A DNA stretch of 64,000 nt from Streptomyces sp. SUK 48 (lineage in GTDB: Bacteria; Actinomycetota; Actinomycetes; Streptomycetales; Streptomycetaceae). Position numbers and translations under genes: made by a program. Where the stretch lies: contig NZ_CP045740.1 of NCBI RefSeq assembly GCF_009650765.1, positions 2,604,001 to 2,668,000 on the forward strand, read 5' to 3'. Below the pieces are notes generated by a model that worked only from the letters and a program-made list of their open reading frames with translations, made no database searches and was not told where the DNA came from. Positions 15,354-26,928 of this stretch are shown piece after piece (the first letter of the stretch is position 1; each line of letters opens with the position of its first letter).

Positions 15354-15935
15354 GGTTGTACGCGTCCTAGTCCTGTGTCGGCGGGTGACAGTGCGGGGTG
15401 ACAGATACGTCCCTCATGTAAAGCGTCAGGCTAAACATCCGATTCCCTGACCAACTCGCCAACCAGCCCTGATGGTTATGTGATTTTGCTCACCAACGTG
15501 GGGACATACAGGTCAATTCCGGCCTACAACCCGCCCTAACGAAACGGACATTGAGGGCGGGAAGCCCCCATTCCGCTGCCGATCATGGCGACTGGGACAC
15601 GTGCCACCGGGCGGCAACTCGCAGGGATACGTCCGTTATGGATGAGATCTACTTCCACGACTGGTGACCCGACATGCACACCCTGTCACGGTTGTCACAG
15701 CTCGGCACGCGGCCCTTGTTGGAGATCCGCCACTGTGCTGGAATTCCACGGACCGCCGCAGGATCGACCCGGCGCGCAGGGGCGCAACGCAGCGCCGAGT
15801 GGCGGCGAGACAAGGGGGAACCTGCGCCGGTCACTCAAGACCACCGGGGGGCGTTTTCAGGGCGCCTTCCACGACGCCGACACCGTGTTCGTCCGCTCGC
15901 GCGGAGGGACGCCTGGTCCAGAGGTTGCGACGCTA
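15354..15935. promoter_or_regulatory. Divergent control region between the NPRRT gene and conservon 1
   Basis: About 580 bases without a convincing gene. It is markedly AT-richer around 15410-15560 than the flanking DNA. A direct repeat GGGTGACAG occurs at 15383-15391 and 15396-15404 with a 13-base period, a possible activator site for the small gene. TGTCACGGTTGTCAC around 15684 is a second short direct repeat on the cvnA1 side. Promoter assignment is inferred. Confidence 0.4.
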
Positions 15936-18900
15936 GTGCAGGGACGTTTCAAGAGGGATGGCAGCGCTTCGGCGGAGCCGGAGCCGCACGACGGGACTGG
16001 CCCCATGAAGGGCAGCGCCTCTCCCCAGCACGCCCAGAACCCGGGCCCGACCCCGCCCGGTGAGGGCCCCGACCGCGCACGCCCCGGCGCGTCGGCCGCC
16101 TCCTCCAAGGGCGCCTCCCCCAAGGGCTCCGCCTCCGGCAAGAAGTCCGGCTCCGGCAAGGGCTCTGGCAAGGGCTCCGGCAAGTCCGCGGGCGGCGCGT
16201 CGGCCGCGAAGCCCGCCCCGGCCGCGAAGCCGGCGTCGGTGCCGGCCAGCTCCGGCTCCCGCATGGCGCTGCGCAACTGGCGCATCTCCACCCGTCTGGT
16301 CTCGCTGCTCGCGCTCCCCGTGGTCGCGGCGACCTCGCTGGGCGCCCTGCGCATCAACGAGAACCTGAACGACATCCAGCAGCTCGACAACATGAAGCTG
16401 CTGACGGACATGACCAAGCAGGCCACCGAGCTGGCCGCCGCGCTCCAGGAGGAGCGCGACCAGTCCGCCGGTCCCATGTCGCACGGGCTCAGCGCGAGCG
16501 ACTACACGGTCAAGGGCTACCAGCAGAAGACCGACCGGGCCCGCGCCAACTTCCTCGACGCCTCCGAGCAGATCGACGAGGCCAGCAAGGACGGCCAGCT
16601 CCAGGGCGTGCGCGACGCGCTCGTCGGCCTCGCCAACCAGCTGGACGACCTGGCGAAGATCCGCCGGTCCGCCTACGAGTCCACGGGCAACTCGACCCAG
16701 ACCATCGAGTCGTACCACCGGCTGATCACCCAGCTGATCGACCTGTCCCAGGACATGGCCGAGGCGTCCAGCAACCCCGAGATGATCTCGCGCACCCGCG
16801 CCCTGGCGGCGTTCTCCACCGCCAAGGAGTACGCGTCGGTGCAGCGCGCGACCATCGCCGCGGCGCTGCCCTCGACCACCACCAGCAAGGCCGACCTCTC
16901 GGAGAACGACCGCCTGTACGGCGAGTCGGCGTACGAGAGCGAGAACTCCGAGCTGGCGATCTTCCGCAAGATCTACGCGAGTCAGAACGCGGAGGAGCTG
17001 CTCAAGCCGATCGACGGTGGCAACAACCCGACGATCGAGTCCGCGGACACCTACGCCAAGCGCGCCTTCGCGCAGCGCGGCGGCCTGTCCGACCTGCCCC
17101 CGCGCTCCTACCGCGACTGGGTGGACGACAGCTCGACCAAGATCGAGCAGATGAAGAAGATCGAGCACACGCTGCTCGAGGACATGGAGCAGAAGGCGCG
17201 CGAGCTCAAGAGCGCCACCCAGCGCGACGCCATCATCTCCGGTGTGCTGATCCTGCTGGTGCTCGGTGTCTCGCTGGTCGGCGCGTTCGTCGTGGCCCGC
17301 TCCATGATCCGCTCGCTGCGCCGGCTCCAGGAGACCGCCACCACGGTCGCCCAGGAACGCCTGCCCGAGCTGGTCAAGCACCTCTCGGAGTCCGACCCGC
17401 AGGACGTGGACACCTCCGTCGAGTCGGTCGGTGTGCACTCCCGGGACGAGATCGGCCAGGTGGCCGCGGCCTTCGACGACGTGCACCGCGAGGCGGTCCG
17501 CCTCGCCGCCGAGCAGGCCCTGCTGCGGGGCAACGTCAACGCGATGTTCACCAACCTCTCGCGCCGCTCCCAGGGTCTGATCCAGCGCCAGCTGTCGCTC
17601 ATCTCCGAACTGGAGTCCCGCGAGGCCGACCCGGACCAGCTCTCCTCGCTGTTCAAGCTGGACCACCTCGCCACCCGTATGCGCCGTAACGGCGAGAACC
17701 TCCTCGTCCTCGCCGGTGAGGAGCCGGGCCGCCGCTGGACCCGTCCGGTGCCGCTGGTCGACGTGCTCCGCGCCGCCGCCTCCGAGGTGGAGCAGTACGA
17801 GCGCATCGAGCTGGCCTCCGTGCCGACGACCGAGGTCGCCGGCCGGGTCGTCAACGACCTCGTGCACCTGCTCGCCGAGCTGCTGGAGAACGCCACCTCG
17901 TTCTCCTCCCCGCAGACCAAGGTCAAGGTCACCGGTCACGCGCTGCCCGACGGGCGAGTGCTGATCGAGATCCACGACACCGGCATCGGCCTCTCCCCCG
18001 AGGACCTCGCAGCGATCAACGAGCGGCTCGCCTCGCCGCCCACCGTGGACGTCTCCGTCTCCCGCCGCATGGGTCTGTTCGTGGTCGGCCGGCTCTCGCA
18101 GCGGCACGGCATCCGCATCCAGCTGCGCCCCTCCGACTCCGGTGGCACGACCGCGCTGGTCATGCTGCCCGTGGACGTCGCCCAGGGCGGCAAGAAGGCT
18201 CCCGGCAAGGCCGGCGGCCCCGGCGCGGTCGGCGGTCCGGCCGCCGCGCAGGCCGCCGCCGGTGCGGCCGCGGCCCGCCGCGGTGGCGCGGGCGCCCCGG
18301 GCAACGGCGGTGGTCTGCTCGGCTCCGGCGGCAGCGGTACCCGCGGCCAGGTCGGCGCCGGCCAGGGTCCCCGGGCCGCGCTGCCCGGCACCGGCCAGGG
18401 CGGCCGTCCCGGCGCGCCCGGTGGTGCCCCCGGTGGCGCTCCGGGCGGCGCGCGCGGTCCGCAGCGCGGCGGTGCCCCCGGCTTCGGCGCCCAGGCGCCG
18501 AACGCCCCGCAGAACCTCCAGGCCGCCAACCCGGCCGTGCCGCAGGGCCTCCAGGCCGCCAACCCGGCCGGTCCCCAGCAGGACCTGTTCGGCGGCCGCG
18601 GCACTCAGCGCGGCCCCGGCGGCGGCGACCAGGGCCGCCAGCCCCAGCTGCCGCCGCGCGGCGGTCCGCGGGCCGAGCTGCCCGGTGGCGACTCCCGGCG
18701 CGGCCAGGACTGGAACGACGGCCGGGCCTCCCTCGACACCCCGCGCGGCCACGACGAGCAGGACCCGTCGGGCACCGCGCAGATGCCGGCGATCGACGAC
18801 CGGCAGGGTCCGGGCTCGACCGCGCAGATGCCGCGGATCGATCCGCACGGCCCCGTGCCCACGGGCGACTTCGGCCGTCCCGAGCTGCCCGGCTCCCAGG

Positions 18901-20120
18901 GCGCGGGCCAGTACGGCCGTCCGGAACTCCCGCAGCAGACCGGCCAGTTCGCCCGGCCCGACACCACGGGCCAGTACCAGCGCCCGGACGCCGGCCAGCA
19001 CACCGGACCGTTCCAGCGGCCCGAATCCCCGCAGGACACCGGCCAGTTCGCCCGGCCGGACACCACGGGCCAGTACCAGCGCCCGGACGCCGGCCAGCAC
19101 ACCGGACCGTTCCAGCGGCCGGAAGCGCCGCAGCACACCGGGCAGTTCCCGCAGGTGGACGCCAACCAGCACACCGGGCAGTTCCCGGGGGCCGATCAGC
19201 ACACGGGCCAGTTCCCGCAGGCGGAACTCCCGCAGCAGACCGGTCAGTTCCAGCGCCCCGACGCGGGCCAGTACCCGCACCCCGACGCCGCTCAGCAGAC
19301 CGGCCAGTTCCCGCGGCCGGACGCGGCGCAGCAGCCGGGGCGGTACGAGGCCCCGGCCGGTCAGCAGGACGACAACGCGTTCGTGCGCCCGGACGTCTTC
19401 GGGACGCCGGCCCGCCCGGAGCAGCCCGTCCAGGAGACCGGCCGGTACGCGGCCCCGGGTGCCTACGACAACAGCGGCACCGGTCAGCACGCGCTGCCCG
19501 GCCGTGCCGACCCGGCACACACCGGGCAGTTCGAGCGCCCGCAGCCGCCCGCCCGGGACGACTTCGGCGCCCCGCGCCCGCCGGCCCCGCAGCAGGCGCC
19601 GGTGCACCAGGAGCGCCCGGTGCGCGAGCCGGAGGCGCTGCCGCCGGCCAGCGGTCCCGGTGACGGCCGTACCCCGCTGTTCGACACGCTGGAGACCAAC
19701 TGGTTCCACGGCGCGGCCGGCCAGCAGCAGGGCCAGGAACAGGGTCAGGAACAGGGTCAGCAGCAGGGCGCGCCCGCCGAGCAGCAGCAGGCCGCGCAGC
19801 CCGAGGCGGCCCCCGCCACCGGCTCCTGGCGCGCCTCGCCGAACGACGAACTCGTACGGCAGGCGGAGCGGGTGCGCCAGCCCGCCGCGGGTGGTATCAC
19901 CACGTCCGGTCTGCCGCGCCGGGTGCCCCGGGCGAACCTCGTGCCGGGCACGGCTCAGCAGCAACAGCACCAAACCGGTCCGCAGGTCTCCCGTGCGCCC
20001 GACGACGTACGCGGCCGGCTGACCAATCTCCGTCGGGGCATCGCCCAGGGTCGTCAGGCCGGTACCGGTACCGGTCAGACGGGCAGCTACCCGAGCCCCA
20101 CTCACCAGCAGGAGCGTTAG
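15936..20120 (+). CDS. cvnA1: CvnA1, sensor histidine kinase-like protein of conservon 1
   Basis: 1394 residues from GTG at 15936 ([20 protein letters not shown]); ATG 16005 is an alternative. Order: Ser/Gly/Lys-rich cytoplasmic N-terminus, membrane segment ~121-140 ([20 protein letters not shown]), an extracellular helical nitrate/nitrite-sensing (NIT-like) region, second membrane segment ~433-457, HAMP, a helical region ([17 protein letters not shown]), then a GHKL ATPase domain with [19 protein letters not shown] and [14 protein letters not shown]. After ~residue 755 comes ~640 residues of Gly/Pro/Gln-rich repeats ending near [16 protein letters not shown]. Conservon kinases are thought to signal to the GTPase CvnD through CvnB and CvnC at the membrane; direct phosphotransfer is unproven. 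Confidence 0.93.
18942..19139 (+). repeat. 99-base tandem duplication inside cvnA1
   Basis: Two nearly identical 99-base units (18942-19040 and 19041-19139) encode two 33-residue copies starting [20 protein letters not shown]. They keep frame. Shorter degenerate relatives ([22 protein letters not shown]) extend to about 19340. The near identity points to recent slippage or unequal exchange. Confidence 0.85.
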
Positions 20121-20129
20121 TTGAGTCCG

Positions 20130-20542
20130 ATGAGCCAGGCGGCACAGAACCTGAACTGGTTGATCACCAACTTCGTGGACAACACCCCGGGGTGTCCCAC
20201 ACGGTGGTGGTCTCCGCCGACGGCCTGCTGCTGGCGATGTCCGAGGGCTTCCCGCGGGACCGCGCCGACCAGTTGGCGGCCGTCGCCTCCGGTCTGACCT
20301 CGCTGACGGCCGGGGCCTCCCGGATCTTCGAGGGCGGCACCGTGGCCCAGACGGTGGTGGAGATGGAGCGGGGGTTCCTCTTCCTGATGTCGATCTCGGA
20401 CGGGTCTTCCCTCGCGGTACTGGCCCACCCCGAGTGCGACATCGGCCTGGTCGGCTACGAGATGGCACTGCTCGTCGACCGCGCGGGGGCGGTCCTCACC
20501 CCGGACCTGCGCGCCGAACTACAGGGCAGTCTGCTTCACTGA
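20130..20542 (+). pseudogene. cvnB1: cvnB1, roadblock/LC7 protein with a one-base frameshift
   Basis: The gene starts at ATG 20130 (in-frame TTG 20121) with [21 protein letters not shown], then breaks: the G-run at 20189-20192 has four G, while the otherwise identical stretch in cvnB2 has five. The first frame then runs to a TGA at 20295. The remaining 116 residues ([20 protein letters not shown] to LQGSLLH) are intact in the next frame from 20192. A whole protein would be 137 residues of the roadblock/LC7 (MglB-like) fold that acts on the CvnD GTPase. It may be a real mutation, a homopolymer sequencing error, or translation could restart at the GTG at 20192. Confidence 0.85.
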
Positions 20543-20653: not shown

Positions 20654-21052
20654 ATGACCCCGCCCACCGCCCATCACGATCCGTACGCGGAACCGTACGG
20701 GGACGAGGGCGACCAGCCGCTGGTGCGGCCCTACGCCATGACCGGCGGCCGGACCCGGCCGCGTTACCAGCTCGCCATCGAGGCGCTGATCAGCACCACG
20801 GCCGACCCCGCCGCGCTCATGGGGCTGCTTCCCGAGCACCAGCGGATCTGCCACCTGTGCCGTGAGGTCAAGTCGGTGGCCGAGGTCTCCGCACTGCTGA
20901 ACATGCCGCTGGGCGTGGCCCGAATCCTGGTCGCCGACCTGGCCGAGGCCGGCCTGGTCGCCATCCACCAGCCGGGCGGGGACGAGAACAACGGCGGCGC
21001 TCCGGACGTGACGCTGCTCGAAAGGGTGCTCAGTGGACTTCGCAAGCTCTGA
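20654..21052 (+). CDS. cvnC1: CvnC1, DUF742 protein of conservon 1
   Basis: 132 residues from ATG at 20654 with GGAGGA just upstream; a TTG at 20618 is less likely. The DUF742 core follows a short acidic N-terminus: LVRPYAMTGGRTRPRYQLAIEALI, LPEHQRICHLCREVKSVAEVSALLNMPLGVARILVADLAEAGLV, a winged-helix-like domain. Conservon CvnC proteins bind CvnD and CvnB in a complex at the membrane. The last 20 bases overlap cvnD1. The gap to cvnB1 (111 bases) is longer than usual within the cluster. Confidence 0.93.
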   Translation: MTPPTAHHDPYAEPYGDEGDQPLVRPYAMTGGRTRPRYQLAIEALISTTADPAALMGLLPEHQRICHLCREVKSVAEVSALLNMPLGVARILVADLAEAGLVAIHQPGGDENNGGAPDVTLLERVLSGLRKL

Positions 21053-21608
21053 CGCGGGACGGGCCACCACCTCGGCGAAGATCGTGGTGGCGGGCGGCTT
21101 CGGCGTGGGCAAGACCACGTTCGTCGGCGCCGTCTCGGAGATCAACCCGCTGCGCACCGAGGCCGTGATGACCTCGGCCTCGGCCGGCATCGACGACCTC
21201 ACGCACACCGGGGACAAGACCACCACCACGGTGGCCATGGACTTCGGCCGTATCACCCTGGACCAGGACCTCATCCTGTACCTCTTCGGTACGCCGGGTC
21301 AGGACCGCTTCTGGTTCATGTGGGACGACCTGGTGCGCGGCGCCATCGGCGCCGTCGTCCTCGTCGACACCCGCAGGCTCGCCGACTGCTTCCCGGCCGT
21401 CGACTACTTCGAGAACAGCGGCCTGCCCTTCGTCATCGCCCTCAACGGCTTCGACGGCCACCAGCCGTACACGCCGGACGAGGTGCGCGAGGCGCTCCAG
21501 ATCGGGCCCGACACCCCGATCATCACCACCGACGCCCGGCACCGCGCCGACGCGAAGAGCGCGCTGATCACGCTGGTCGAGCACGCGCTGATGGCGCGGC
21601 TGCGGTGA
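21033..21608 (+). CDS. cvnD1: CvnD1, small GTPase of conservon 1
   Basis: 191 residues from GTG at 21033, overlapping cvnC1 by 20 bases. Ras-like/MglA-related GTPase: P-loop GGFGVGKTT (residues ~22-30), switch II FGTPGQDRFWF, and NGFDGHQPY in place of the usual NKxD base-recognition motif. It ends TLVEHALMARLR. It should cycle between GDP and GTP under control of CvnA/B/C. It is nearly identical to CvnD2, with a 109-base fully identical stretch (21064-21172). Confidence 0.95.
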   Translation: MDFASSDAGRATTSAKIVVAGGFGVGKTTFVGAVSEINPLRTEAVMTSASAGIDDLTHTGDKTTTTVAMDFGRITLDQDLILYLFGTPGQDRFWFMWDDLVRGAIGAVVLVDTRRLADCFPAVDYFENSGLPFVIALNGFDGHQPYTPDEVREALQIGPDTPIITTDARHRADAKSALITLVEHALMARLR

Positions 21609-22014: not shown

Positions 22015-25000
22015 GTGAGGCGAAGCAAGAACGGTCCCGAGCCGTCGGCACGGGGCAACTTCACCCCGCCGCCGCGCGCCGCGGCGCCCGCGCTGGTGCC
22101 GGACGCGGAGCCGGCGGACACTCCCGCGTCGGGCGGCGGCCGTTTCTCCCCGCGCAACTGGCGGGTGCCCACCAGACTGAACGCCATCCTGCTCATACCC
22201 GCGGCCGTCGGCCTGGTCATGGGCGGCTTCCAGGTGAACAGCTCCATCGACACCTGGCAGCAGGCCCGTGACGCCGAGAACACCGCCCGGCTGGTGCGCG
22301 CGGCCCTCGTCTACGCGGACGCCGTGGAGAACGAGCGCGACATCACCGCCGCGCCGCTCCTGCTGAACAAGAAGGACAGCAAGAGCAAGGCGACGATCGA
22401 GAACGCGCGCAGGAACACCGACGAGGCCGCCGCCGGTTTCACCGAGGCGACGAAGAGCATGCCGCACACGCCCGGTCTGGAGCGTCGGCTGAAGCTGTTC
22501 CGCAAGGCCGAGCCCGAGATCCAGGTCCTGCGCAAGACCGCCTACACCTCCAAGCTCACCGGCGTGCAGACCGAGGAGGCGTACGTCGAGGTCGCCCACC
22601 CCCTGATGGAGTTCGCCAACGAGCTCGGTCTGGGCACCGGCAACATCACGTCGTACGGCCGTACCGTCTACGCCATGTCGCTGACCAAGGCGGCGCTGTC
22701 GCTGGAGCGGTCCATCGGCACGCATCTGCTGGTCAAGCCGGGTCCGGACGCGCCGAACCTGTCCACCCAGCGGGTCTCCCTGTCCTCGTACGCCTACCTC
22801 GAACGCATCGCCATCGAGGAGTACCAGGGCGGTGGCACCGCGCAGGACTCGCAGGTGCTGGCCGACGCGCAGAAGAAGGTCGCGGCGGACGCCAAGGCCG
22901 AGGCCGCGCAGGCCAAGGAGGACGACCCGAACTACGTGCCGCCGCCGAGCAACCCGAACACCATGGTCGCGGCGCTGGCCACCATGAAGGACACCAGCCC
23001 GGCCACCCGTGACGCGCTCGCCGCGAACGGGGTCAGCGCGCAGAACTGGTACGCGGTCAACACGCTCAAGTACAAGGCGTACCGCACGATCGAGTCGAAC
23101 ATGGCCGACAAGGCCGTGAACGAGGCGTCCGGCATCGCCGACGACGCCCGTACCTCCGCGATCATCACCGGCACCATCGTGGTCATCGCCCTGCTGCTCG
23201 CCTTCCTGCTGGCCGGCGCGGTCGCGCGGCAGATGAGCCGCTCGATGCGCCAGCTGCGCAACGCGGCCTTCGGCATCGCCGAGCAGCGCCTGCCGATGCT
23301 GGTCGACCAGCTCTCGCGCACCGACCCCGGCCGGGTCGACACCCGGGTCGCGCCGATCCCGATCCACACCAAGGACGAGATCGGCGAGGTCGCCCGCGCC
23401 TTCGACCAGGTGCACCGCGAGGCGATCCGGCTCGCCTCCGAGCAGGCCCTGCTGCGGGGCAACATCAACGCGATCTTCACCAACCTGTCGCAGCGCAACC
23501 AGTCGCTGATCGAGGGCCAGTTGACCCTGATCACCGACCTGGAGAACAACGAGGCGGACCCGGACCAGCTGGAGAACCTCTTCAAGCTGGACCACCTGGC
23601 CACCCGTATGCGCCGCAACGGCGAGAACCTCCTGGTCCTCGCCGGCGAGGAGCCCGGCCGCCGCTGGGACCAGCCGGTCCCGCTGGTCGACGTGCTGCGC
23701 GCCGCCTCCTCCGAGGTGGAGCAGTACGAGCGCATCGAGCTGTCCGGTGTCCCGGACGCGGAGATCCACGGCCGCGCGGTCACCGACCTCGTGCACCTGC
23801 TGGCCGAGCTGCTGGAGAACGCCACCACGTTCTCCTCGCCGCAGACCAAGGTCAAGGTCACCGCGACCCGGCTGCCCGACGGCCGCGTCATGGTCGAGAT
23901 CCACGACAAGGGCATCGGTCTGACCGCCGAGGACTTCGCGGACATCAACCACAAGCTGGCCAACCCGCCGACCGTGGACGCGGCGATCTCCCAGCGCATG
24001 GGCCTGTTCGTGGTCGGCCGGCTGTCCGACCGGCACGGCATCCGGGTCCAGCTGCGCCCCTCGGGCGAGCAGGCCGGCACCACCTCGCTGGTCATGCTGC
24101 CGGACGCGATCACGCACGGCGGTGGCGGCGACACCGCGCTGGACCGCGAGGAGTTCACGGTCTCGCAGATCATCCCGGAGCAGCAGTTCCGGGCGGAGCA
24201 CCCGGAGGCGCAGCCGCTGCGCACGGCCGCCGAACTGGGCTTCGACGACAGCCAGTACACCGAGGTCCCCGACGACATCCGCGAACTGGACCCGGTCGGC
24301 CGCTCGTTGCTGCGCGAGGGGCGCCGTGCCGCCCTGGAGGCGCAGACCCACGGCCAGCCGCAGCCGGCCGAACCGCGCCAGGACACCGGCGAGACGTACG
24401 CACAGCCGCTGTTCGACGGGCAGCAGCAGCACACCGGCTACCCCGCGCAGCCGCAGCAGCCGTACGAGGAGACTCCGTACCAGGAGCAGCCGTACCAGGA
24501 GCAGGCGTACCAGGAGCCGTACACGGAGACGCCGTCCGCGTCCTACGAGCGGTCGTACGACGGGCAGTACTACCCGCAGAACGGTGAGCCGGCGGGCACG
24601 CAGGGCTACCCGGCGAACGGCGGCTACCCGCAGAACGGCTATGCGGAGCCCGCCTACCAGGGCGACTGGCAGCAGCAGGGCGCCTATCAGAACGGCTACC
24701 CGGCCCATTACGCTCCGGAAACGGAATCCGCGCCGGCCGACACGGGAGAGCAGAACCGCGTAGGCTTCGACAGTCCCGGAGCGGGCGTTCCCGGCGCGCA
24801 CGGGCTGACCGGCGCCGGGCTGCCCCGCCGGGGTTCCGTCCCGAACGGTTTCGACGGCGCGGCCCCCGCGCAGCAGGAGACGCCGGCTGCCGCACCGGAG
24901 CACCACGGTGACGGCGCGGAGCATCCGGCGAACGACGGCGGCAAAGACGACGACTGGCGTTCGGCGAACGACGAGCGCTGGCAGCAGGCTTCCCAGCTGC

Positions 25001-25257
25001 GCAAGCCCAAGGCAGGCGGGGTCACCGCCTCCGGGCTGCCGCGGCGGGTGCCCAAGGCCAACCTGGTCGAGGGCAGCGCCGAGTCCACCCCCCAGGGAGG
25101 CCCCCAGGTCTCCCGCGCCCCGGAGGACGTCCGGGGCAGGCTGAGCAACCTGCGCCGAGGCGTCCAGCGCGGACGCACCGCAGGCAGTGAAACGAACGGC
25201 CAGGCCACTGGGAATCAGCACAGTGGTCCTGACAGCACCTACAACCAGGAGCGTTAG
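22015..25257 (+). CDS. cvnA2: CvnA2, sensor histidine kinase-like protein of conservon 2
   Basis: 1080 residues from GTG at 22015. Same plan as CvnA1: cytoplasmic start, membrane segment ~55-74 (LNAILLIPAAVGLVMGGFQV), external helical sensing region, second membrane segment ~380-405 (IITGTIVVIALLLAFLLAGA), [24 protein letters not shown], and a GHKL ATPase domain ([33 protein letters not shown]). The tail is ~370 residues, Gln/Tyr/Pro-rich with PYQEQ-type repeats around 24465-24530, closing with [15 protein letters not shown]. The external domain differs strongly from CvnA1 while the kinase core is highly similar, implying different signals. Confidence 0.94.
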   Translation: MRRSKNGPEPSARGNFTPPPRAAAPALVPDAEPADTPASGGGRFSPRNWRVPTRLNAILLIPAAVGLVMGGFQVNSSIDTWQQARDAENTARLVRAALVYADAVENERDITAAPLLLNKKDSKSKATIENARRNTDEAAAGFTEATKSMPHTPGLERRLKLFRKAEPEIQVLRKTAYTSKLTGVQTEEAYVEVAHPLMEFANELGLGTGNITSYGRTVYAMSLTKAALSLERSIGTHLLVKPGPDAPNLSTQRVSLSSYAYLERIAIEEYQGGGTAQDSQVLADAQKKVAADAKAEAAQAKEDDPNYVPPPSNPNTMVAALATMKDTSPATRDALAANGVSAQNWYAVNTLKYKAYRTIESNMADKAVNEASGIADDARTSAIITGTIVVIALLLAFLLAGAVARQMSRSMRQLRNAAFGIAEQRLPMLVDQLSRTDPGRVDTRVAPIPIHTKDEIGEVARAFDQVHREAIRLASEQALLRGNINAIFTNLSQRNQSLIEGQLTLITDLENNEADPDQLENLFKLDHLATRMRRNGENLLVLAGEEPGRRWDQPVPLVDVLRAASSEVEQYERIELSGVPDAEIHGRAVTDLVHLLAELLENATTFSSPQTKVKVTATRLPDGRVMVEIHDKGIGLTAEDFADINHKLANPPTVDAAISQRMGLFVVGRLSDRHGIRVQLRPSGEQAGTTSLVMLPDAITHGGGGDTALDREEFTVSQIIPEQQFRAEHPEAQPLRTAAELGFDDSQYTEVPDDIRELDPVGRSLLREGRRAALEAQTHGQPQPAEPRQDTGETYAQPLFDGQQQHTGYPAQPQQPYEETPYQEQPYQEQAYQEPYTETPSASYERSYDGQYYPQNGEPAGTQGYPANGGYPQNGYAEPAYQGDWQQQGAYQNGYPAHYAPETESAPADTGEQNRVGFDSPGAGVPGAHGLTGAGLPRRGSVPNGFDGAAPAQQETPAAAPEHHGDGAEHPANDGGKDDDWRSANDERWQQASQLRKPKAGGVTASGLPRRVPKANLVEGSAESTPQGGPQVSRAPEDVRGRLSNLRRGVQRGRTAGSETNGQATGNQHSGPDSTYNQER

Positions 25258-25267
25258 TGTGAGCCCG

Positions 25268-25681
25268 ATGAGCCAGGCGGCACAGAACCTGAACTGGTTG
25301 ATCACCAACTTCGTGGACAACACCCCGGGGGTGTCCCACACGGTGGTGGTCTCCGCCGACGGACTCCTTCTGGCGATGTCCGAAGGCTTCCCCCGTGACC
25401 GCGCCGACCAGCTCGCCGCCGTCGCCTCCGGTCTGACCTCGCTGACCGCCGGTGCCTCGCGCATTTTCGAGGGCGGCAGCGTCAACCAGACGGTTGTGGA
25501 GATGGAGCGGGGATTCCTCTTCCTCATGTCCATCTCGGACGGATCGTCCCTCGCGGTGCTGGCCCACCCGGAAGCGGACATCGGCCTCATCGGGTACGAG
25601 ATGGCCCTGCTGGTGGACCGCGCGGGCACGGTCCTCACCCCGGATCTCCGCGCGGAGCTCCAGGGAAGCCTTCTCAACTAG
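25268..25681 (+). CDS. cvnB2: CvnB2, roadblock/LC7 protein of conservon 2
   Basis: 137 residues from ATG 25268, or 140 from GTG 25259 which lies one base after the cvnA2 stop. Intact roadblock/LC7 domain: [41 protein letters not shown] start, [40 protein letters not shown]. It is the reference copy that exposes the frameshift in cvnB1; the first 63 bases of both genes are identical. It likely regulates nucleotide exchange or hydrolysis on CvnD2. Confidence 0.95.
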   Translation: MSQAAQNLNWLITNFVDNTPGVSHTVVVSADGLLLAMSEGFPRDRADQLAAVASGLTSLTAGASRIFEGGSVNQTVVEMERGFLFLMSISDGSSLAVLAHPEADIGLIGYEMALLVDRAGTVLTPDLRAELQGSLLN

Positions 25682-25775: not shown

Positions 25776-26357
25776 GTGGCAACACCCCCAGGAGGTTCGC
25801 CCTCGGGCAACTGGTCGTACGGCCCTGCCCAGGGCCACGGCGACGGCTCGGCGAACCCGTACGACTTCCCCTCCGCCCCGCAGCACCGGCGTCCGTACGC
25901 CCCCTCGCCGTACGACCGGCCCCAGGGTCCCGGCCCCTCGCCGTACGACCAGCCGCCGGCCCCGCGCATCCAGCCGGTGCAGCCGCAGCGCCGCGCCGAG
26001 CCGGCGCCCGCGGCGAACAACCCCCTGGTGCGTCCGTACGCCATGACCGGCGGCCGGACCCGCCCGCGCTACCAGCTCGCCATCGAGGCGCTGGTGCACA
26101 CCACCGCTGCTCCGCACCAGATGCAGGGCCAACTGCCCGAGCATCAGCGGATCTGCAATCTCTGCCGGGAGATCAAGTCGGTGGCCGAGGTCTCGGCCCT
26201 GCTGACGATCCCCCTCGGCGTGGCCAGGATCCTCGTCGCCGACTTGGCGGAGGCGGGCCTGGTCGCCATCCATCAGCCCGGCGGCGACGAGAACGCCGGT
26301 GGCCAGCCAGACGTGACACTGCTCGAAAGGGTGCTCAGTGGACTTCGCAAGCTCTAG
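25776..26357 (+). CDS. cvnC2: CvnC2, DUF742 protein of conservon 2
   Basis: 193 residues from GTG at 25776 with GGAGGA 4 bases upstream. The first ~85 residues are a Pro/Tyr/Gln-rich extension (RPYAPSPYDRPQ, SPYDQPPAPR) absent from CvnC1. The DUF742 core follows (LVRPYAMTGGRTRPRYQL, LPEHQRICNLCREIKSVAEV, GVARILVADLAEAGL). It overlaps cvnD2 by 20 bases, as in conservon 1. The proline-rich extension may reach the Pro/Gln-rich tail of CvnA2; this is a guess. Confidence 0.94.
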   Translation: MATPPGGSPSGNWSYGPAQGHGDGSANPYDFPSAPQHRRPYAPSPYDRPQGPGPSPYDQPPAPRIQPVQPQRRAEPAPAANNPLVRPYAMTGGRTRPRYQLAIEALVHTTAAPHQMQGQLPEHQRICNLCREIKSVAEVSALLTIPLGVARILVADLAEAGLVAIHQPGGDENAGGQPDVTLLERVLSGLRKL

Positions 26358-26928
26358 CGGAGGGCCGGTTTCTCAGAGTCGCTCCACCACCTCGGCGAAG
26401 ATCGTGGTGGCGGGCGGCTTCGGCGTGGGCAAGACCACGTTCGTCGGCGCCGTCTCGGAGATCAACCCGCTGCGCACCGAGGCCGTGATGACGTCCGCTT
26501 CGGCCGGCATCGACGACCTCACCCACACCGGAGACAAGACCACCACCACGGTGGCCATGGACTTCGGCCGTATCACCCTCGACCAGGACCTCATCCTGTA
26601 CCTCTTCGGTACGCCGGGTCAGGACCGCTTCTGGTTCATGTGGGACGACCTCGTCCGCGGCGCCATCGGCGCCGTCGTTCTCGTCGACACCCGGCGGCTC
26701 GCCGACTGCTTCCCGGCTGTCGACTACTTCGAGAACAGCGGTCTGCCCTTCGTCATCGCCCTCAACGGCTTCGACGGCAATCAGCCGTACAACCCGGAAG
26801 AGGTGCGCGAGGCGCTGCAGATCGGCCCGGACACCCCGATCATCACGACGGACGCGCGGCATCGGGCCGACGCCAAGTCGACGCTCATCACGCTGGTCGA
26901 GCACGCGCTGATGGCCCGTCTGCGGTAG
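26338..26928 (+). CDS. cvnD2: CvnD2, small GTPase of conservon 2
   Basis: 196 residues from GTG at 26338. Same motifs as CvnD1: GGFGVGKTT, FGTPGQDRFWF, NGFDGNQPY. Compared with CvnD1, only a short N-terminal segment (SSGGPVSQSRS against SDAGRA) and a few other positions differ. It is the last gene of conservon 2, followed by a strong terminator. Confidence 0.96.
   Translation: MDFASSSGGPVSQSRSTTSAKIVVAGGFGVGKTTFVGAVSEINPLRTEAVMTSASAGIDDLTHTGDKTTTTVAMDFGRITLDQDLILYLFGTPGQDRFWFMWDDLVRGAIGAVVLVDTRRLADCFPAVDYFENSGLPFVIALNGFDGNQPYNPEEVREALQIGPDTPIITTDARHRADAKSTLITLVEHALMARLR

Follow-up and report, generated by a model that had tools for sequence, protein, structure and literature searches.

A one-base frame break in cvnB1 of a tandem conservon locus in Streptomyces, most probably a residual assembly error

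The tandem conservons and the reading frame of cvnB1

The window, the 64,000-nucleotide stretch that was analysed, spans bases 2604001-2668000 of an 8.34 Mb genome assembled as one contig. It carries two conservons in tandem, cvnA1-B1-C1-D1 and cvnA2-B2-C2-D2, and Pfam searches recovered the domains expected of them. Both follow the conservon order of cvnA (kinase-like ATPase), cvnB (roadblock), cvnC (DUF742) and cvnD (small GTPase), conservon 1 doing so only when both cvnB1 frames are counted together; the numbers 1 and 2 are labels taken over from the first-pass annotation. The features in window coordinates are as follows.

15585-20120, forward strand: cvnA1, sensor-kinase-like protein with NIT, HAMP and HATPase_c domains (open reading frame as listed, putative start; Pfam)
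20121-20542, forward strand: cvnB1, roadblock/LC7 protein, out of frame in the assembly (sequence, Pfam; TTG 20121 the likely start)
20130-20297, forward strand: upstream section of cvnB1 as it stands in the assembly, 55 codons closed by the stop TGA at 20295-20297 (reading frame)
20182-20195, no strand: ACACCCCGGGGTGT, perfect palindrome at the junction (sequence)
20192-20542, forward strand: 3' open frame of cvnB1, 116 aa, covering positions 16-91 of the 91 in the Robl_LC7 profile (open reading frame, Pfam)
20654-21052, forward strand: cvnC1, DUF742 protein (Pfam)
21033-21608, forward strand: cvnD1, conservon-type small GTPase (Pfam ATP_bind_1)
22015-25257, forward strand: cvnA2 (open reading frame, Pfam)
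25268-25681, forward strand: cvnB2, roadblock protein with an unbroken frame, 137 aa when begun at ATG 25268, with GTG 25259 the likelier start (Pfam, structure match)
25776-26357, forward strand: cvnC2 (106 of 132 residues identical to CvnC1)
26338-26928, forward strand: cvnD2 (184 of 191 residues identical to CvnD1)

An AGGAG motif lies six bases upstream of TTG 20121 in cvnB1 and seven upstream of GTG 25259 in cvnB2, and these codons, each three codons upstream of the corresponding ATG, are probably the true starts of the two genes; two database proteins (P0004 and P0006) begin with MSPMSQ, in accord with such upstream starts. Apart from the break in cvnB1, the locus is a pair of ordinary tandem conservons, and the same gene order beside acyl-CoA carboxylase genes is presumably present in S. 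coelicolor.

With its two tandem cvnA-B-C-D operons and their domains, the locus resembles the published conservons, the actinobacterial cvnA-D G protein systems, and it is in having cvnB1 out of frame in the assembly that it departs from them (PMC8510531; PMC13343842). These sources also discuss a GAP or GEF role for CvnB proteins as partners of CvnD, and report that deletion of cvnB8 has a phenotype of its own (PMC8510531; PMC13343842). At the structural level, CvnB2 aligns with two solved CvnB-type roadblock proteins, over residues 7-124 with 3leq (named cvnB5) and over residues 7-123 with 9hef (Rv3364c), whereas CvnB1 as written has its first 21 residues in the other frame.

The first-pass annotation had described cvnB1 as identical to cvnB2 over its beginning and then broken by a single missing G. 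Alignment bears out the identity over exactly 63 bases, counted from ATG 20130 and ATG 25268, and places GGGG at 20189-20192 where cvnB2 has GGGGG. Past the junction the cvnB1 frame reads C-P-T-R-W-W before reaching its stop (55 aa in total), and the remaining roadblock domain does continue without a stop in the next frame, between GTG 20192 and 20542. The Robl_LC7 profile (PF03259) matches CvnB2 over positions 1-91 (92.3 bits) and the cvnB1 3' frame over positions 16-91 only (77.2 bits); the 5' frame gave no Pfam match.

The description of the lost base as a G holds against the paralogue cvnB2 only, as the nearest orthologue carries five C followed by four G; it comes from G003, the closest relative, whose DNA is 96% identical over the query. 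In L007-L009, the three relatives that follow, the third position of the proline codon is T, C and T. Given these tracts, it is to the proline codon that the absent base is best assigned, and thereby to the C run rather than the G run. The resulting ACACCCCGGGGTGT, a perfect 14-base palindrome, is one base shorter than in cvnB2 and in the orthologues among the matches listed. Between the cvnB1 3' frame and CvnB2 there are 50 base differences, distributed over codon positions 1, 2 and 3 as 6, 4 and 40, and six residue changes, a pattern that, judged from the alignment, is the mark of purifying selection. This exceeds chance, and any real break would thus have to be very recent.

The junction in relatives and in other public records

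The cvnB1 locus was sought in 61 genomes, of which 56 gave matches, and the best 30 loci were compared, one being the window itself; the other 29 loci among the matches listed (L006-L034) all read through the junction, in a frame that stays open for 129 codons counted from the conserved NWL. In a survey of 392 genus genomes, one per species, the shifted form occurs in two, this genome and G248, and an intact site in 338; the intact form was sought with a fixed flanking pattern that misses any site with a substitution in those bases, so that a genome without a match may still have the gene. The G248 assembly is rated 88% complete and carries the shifted copy in the cvnB2 position, its contig measuring 5.4 Mb or more, while the other copy is intact.

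A contig scan returned three matches, from Streptomyces sp. DHE7-1, Streptomyces sp. P3 and S. diastatochromogenes ATCC 21481 (L035, L036 and L037), all with the shortened string of cvnB1 and all in the cvnB of the second conservon. CvnA2 is also split across frames within the same 8 kb in each of the three, and these cvnB2 and cvnA2 frame breaks are probably errors in public records. G248 shares the cvnB2 flank and the CvnA2 tail with the S. diastatochromogenes record, which suggests that the two are probably one genome. The name of one matching contig contains "pilon", a polishing tool, four times.

A protein database search with the 55-aa out-of-frame product yielded six matches (E up to 1e-5) from 31 candidates, none of which contains the junction, a result that, with a search limited by shared words and 90% clustering, does not prove its absence from the database. 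The six are CvnB N-termini that continue past the junction site and leave the frame further on.

Other frame breaks in the assembly

An 800-kb region of this assembly (G000; 2.42-3.22 Mb) was compared with G003 (324 kb) and a further relative, G013 (800 kb), by an automatic rule applied in both directions, which demands an isolated gap, at least 75% identity in the 30 bases on each side and a third-position pattern on both sides. Three rows passed against one relative and four against the other, corresponding to six distinct sites at which G000 breaks the relative's frame, all six as one-base deletions; all lie outside the window, at the following chromosome positions.

2430993: EccD (against G003 alone)
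2488747: acyl-CoA dehydrogenase (against G003 alone)
2700128: Gly_transporter-family protein (against both relatives)
2752058: GlgB, with poor conservation on the 5' side of the site (against G013 alone)
2808038: luciferase-like monooxygenase (against G013 alone)
2994015: AroA (against G013 alone)

Applied to the comparison genomes, the same rule found a deletion and an insertion in G003 and two insertions in G013; by eye these four appear to fall near the start of a reading frame (2573783 and 3022501), near the end of one (2801708) and at an overlap between two reading frames (2614408). With six events in G000 against four in the comparison genomes, the excess in number is modest and the contrast lies mainly in direction; it is the uniform occurrence of deletions, six of six, that points to miscalled homopolymers. 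The automatic rule does not pass cvnB1, whose break lies too near the start of the gene and has on its 5' side only a short flank free of substitutions. Counted as a seventh break in 0.8 Mb, cvnB1 brings the figure scaled to the genome to about 70, a rough estimate. The first frameshift lists, which held many false events at the starts of reading frames and in low-complexity regions, were set aside. When G000 was the target, a looser test passed 6 and 19 rows, of which three and four respectively were kept by eye; for G003 and G013 in that role it passed 10 and 15.

Over 276,768 bases aligned with G003, clean single-base gaps are nearly even, with 42 bases lacking in G000 and 35 in G003, or 18 and 11 within G/C runs of three or more, a slight asymmetry that taken alone is no proof of a poor assembly. 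Among 17 C/G tracts of at least eight bases, 14 are equal in length, three, including that of cvnB1, are shorter in G000 and none is longer. The assembly is a single contig rated 100% complete; it is mostly good, with some errors probably left in it, and a part of the other frame breaks may mark genuine pseudogenes.

The case of aroA is particularly informative. A family search found one copy (chromosome 2993035-2994299; L137 and L138), split at 2994012-2994024 into two frames scoring 257.9 and 99.8 bits, neither of which exceeds the cut-off of 287.25 that 14 of 14 control genomes pass; the remaining family matches in the assembly (60.6 and 42.1 bits) are probably of the related MurA type. Loss of AroA would make a strain dependent on aromatic amino acids; a miscall is a likelier reading of the split gene than such auxotrophy.

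Weighing the explanations

Altogether, we consider it very probable that the cvnB1 frameshift stems from one base wrongly left out of the assembly, a residual error located where a C run meets a G run, and that in the living strain cvnB1 would most likely encode an ordinary full-length CvnB, a roadblock/MglB-type regulator of the conservon GTPase; that the deletions are errors, and that cvnB1 is intact in vivo, are the parts we infer. Sequencing error was one of several possibilities raised in the first-pass annotation and is the one that gained support, from the intact frame in all 29 relatives' loci listed, from further one-base deletions in conserved genes (six sites in 0.8 Mb) and from the recurrence of the shortened string. 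The even-handed test shrank the contrast with the comparison genomes, and our confidence in an error was accordingly lowered, by a small step. Published experience is of a similar kind: C and G homopolymers of Streptomyces lead to base-calling and assembly errors, and three PacBio Streptomyces assemblies differed from their short-read-corrected versions at 70, 295 and 335 positions, the vast majority being single-base insertions in homopolymers, with the corrected form giving the better protein hit twice as often in one of these assemblies (PMC6923854). A tool paper describes errors in long-read assemblies as mostly false deletions linked to homopolymers (PMC12007338). This assembly shares with these reports single-base homopolymer differences that break genes conserved in relatives, with probably false deletions the most frequent type, and differs from them in that the cause is read from the pattern (PMC6923854; PMC12007338).

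A functional CvnB1 could in principle be made regardless of the break, by -1 ribosomal frameshifting on C-CCG-GGG, polymerase slippage, phase variation or restart at GTG 20192, readings that are together highly improbable. The heptamer formally fits the pattern X_XXY_YYZ, and the 116-aa product retains Robl_LC7 positions 16-91. With a continuous frame in 29 of the 29 listed loci, there is no conserved shift to programme, and the RNA downstream of the junction (20196-20290), where a stimulatory structure was sought, folds no better than shuffled sequence (z -0.28; 68 of 200 shuffles fold as well). For slippage or phase variation, both proposed in the first-pass annotation, runs of four plus four bases are generally regarded as short; moreover, none of the 29 listed loci is out of frame, and the one other shifted case in 392 genus genomes sits in the cvnB2 position of an assembly rated 88% complete. 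The internal restart suggested in the first-pass annotation fares no better, as GTG 20192 is preceded by only a three-base Shine-Dalgarno-like match and its product is without profile positions 1-15. The ribosome-binding test is a weak one, because by the same crude measure ATG 20130 scores three bases, no better than GTG 20192 (ATG 25268 scores four). Phase variation, ribosomal slippage and internal restart were dropped for want of a signal in conservation, structure or ribosome binding.

A genuine and recent one-base deletion, leaving cvnB1 a pseudogene whose role is covered by CvnB2 and its near-identical partners, is unlikely but deserves more weight. Junctions between a C run and a G run are natural slippage sites, the undecayed 3' frame of cvnB1 is also what a very recent mutation predicts, and frame breaks in G000 are only modestly more frequent than in the two genomes used for comparison. 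The earlier suggestion that CvnB2 substitutes is itself plausible in view of the identity between the conservons (CvnB tails 110 of 116, CvnD 184 of 191, CvnC 106 of 132), while being unneeded if cvnB1 is intact. Against a true mutation stand the six other conserved genes in 0.8 Mb with the same kind of lesion, all deletions and including the only aroA, the recurrence of the shortened string in assemblies that bear further frameshifts, and the absence of frame loss from all 29 relatives' loci among the matches listed. That the deletion is real and conservon 1 signals through a CvnB1 without its first helix, or borrows CvnB2, appears slightly more doubtful still; if the break were true, it would constitute a natural test of CvnB sharing and cross-talk between tandem conservons.

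Under the assembly-error reading, which we prefer, the cvnB1 break is most likely not a real feature and the biology of the locus is ordinary. Several genes of this assembly, aroA among them, have probably been miscalled, which calls for caution in attaching biological readings to its single-base breaks. At least three further Streptomyces entries in public databases also have a shortened CCCCGGGG junction in a cvnB gene.
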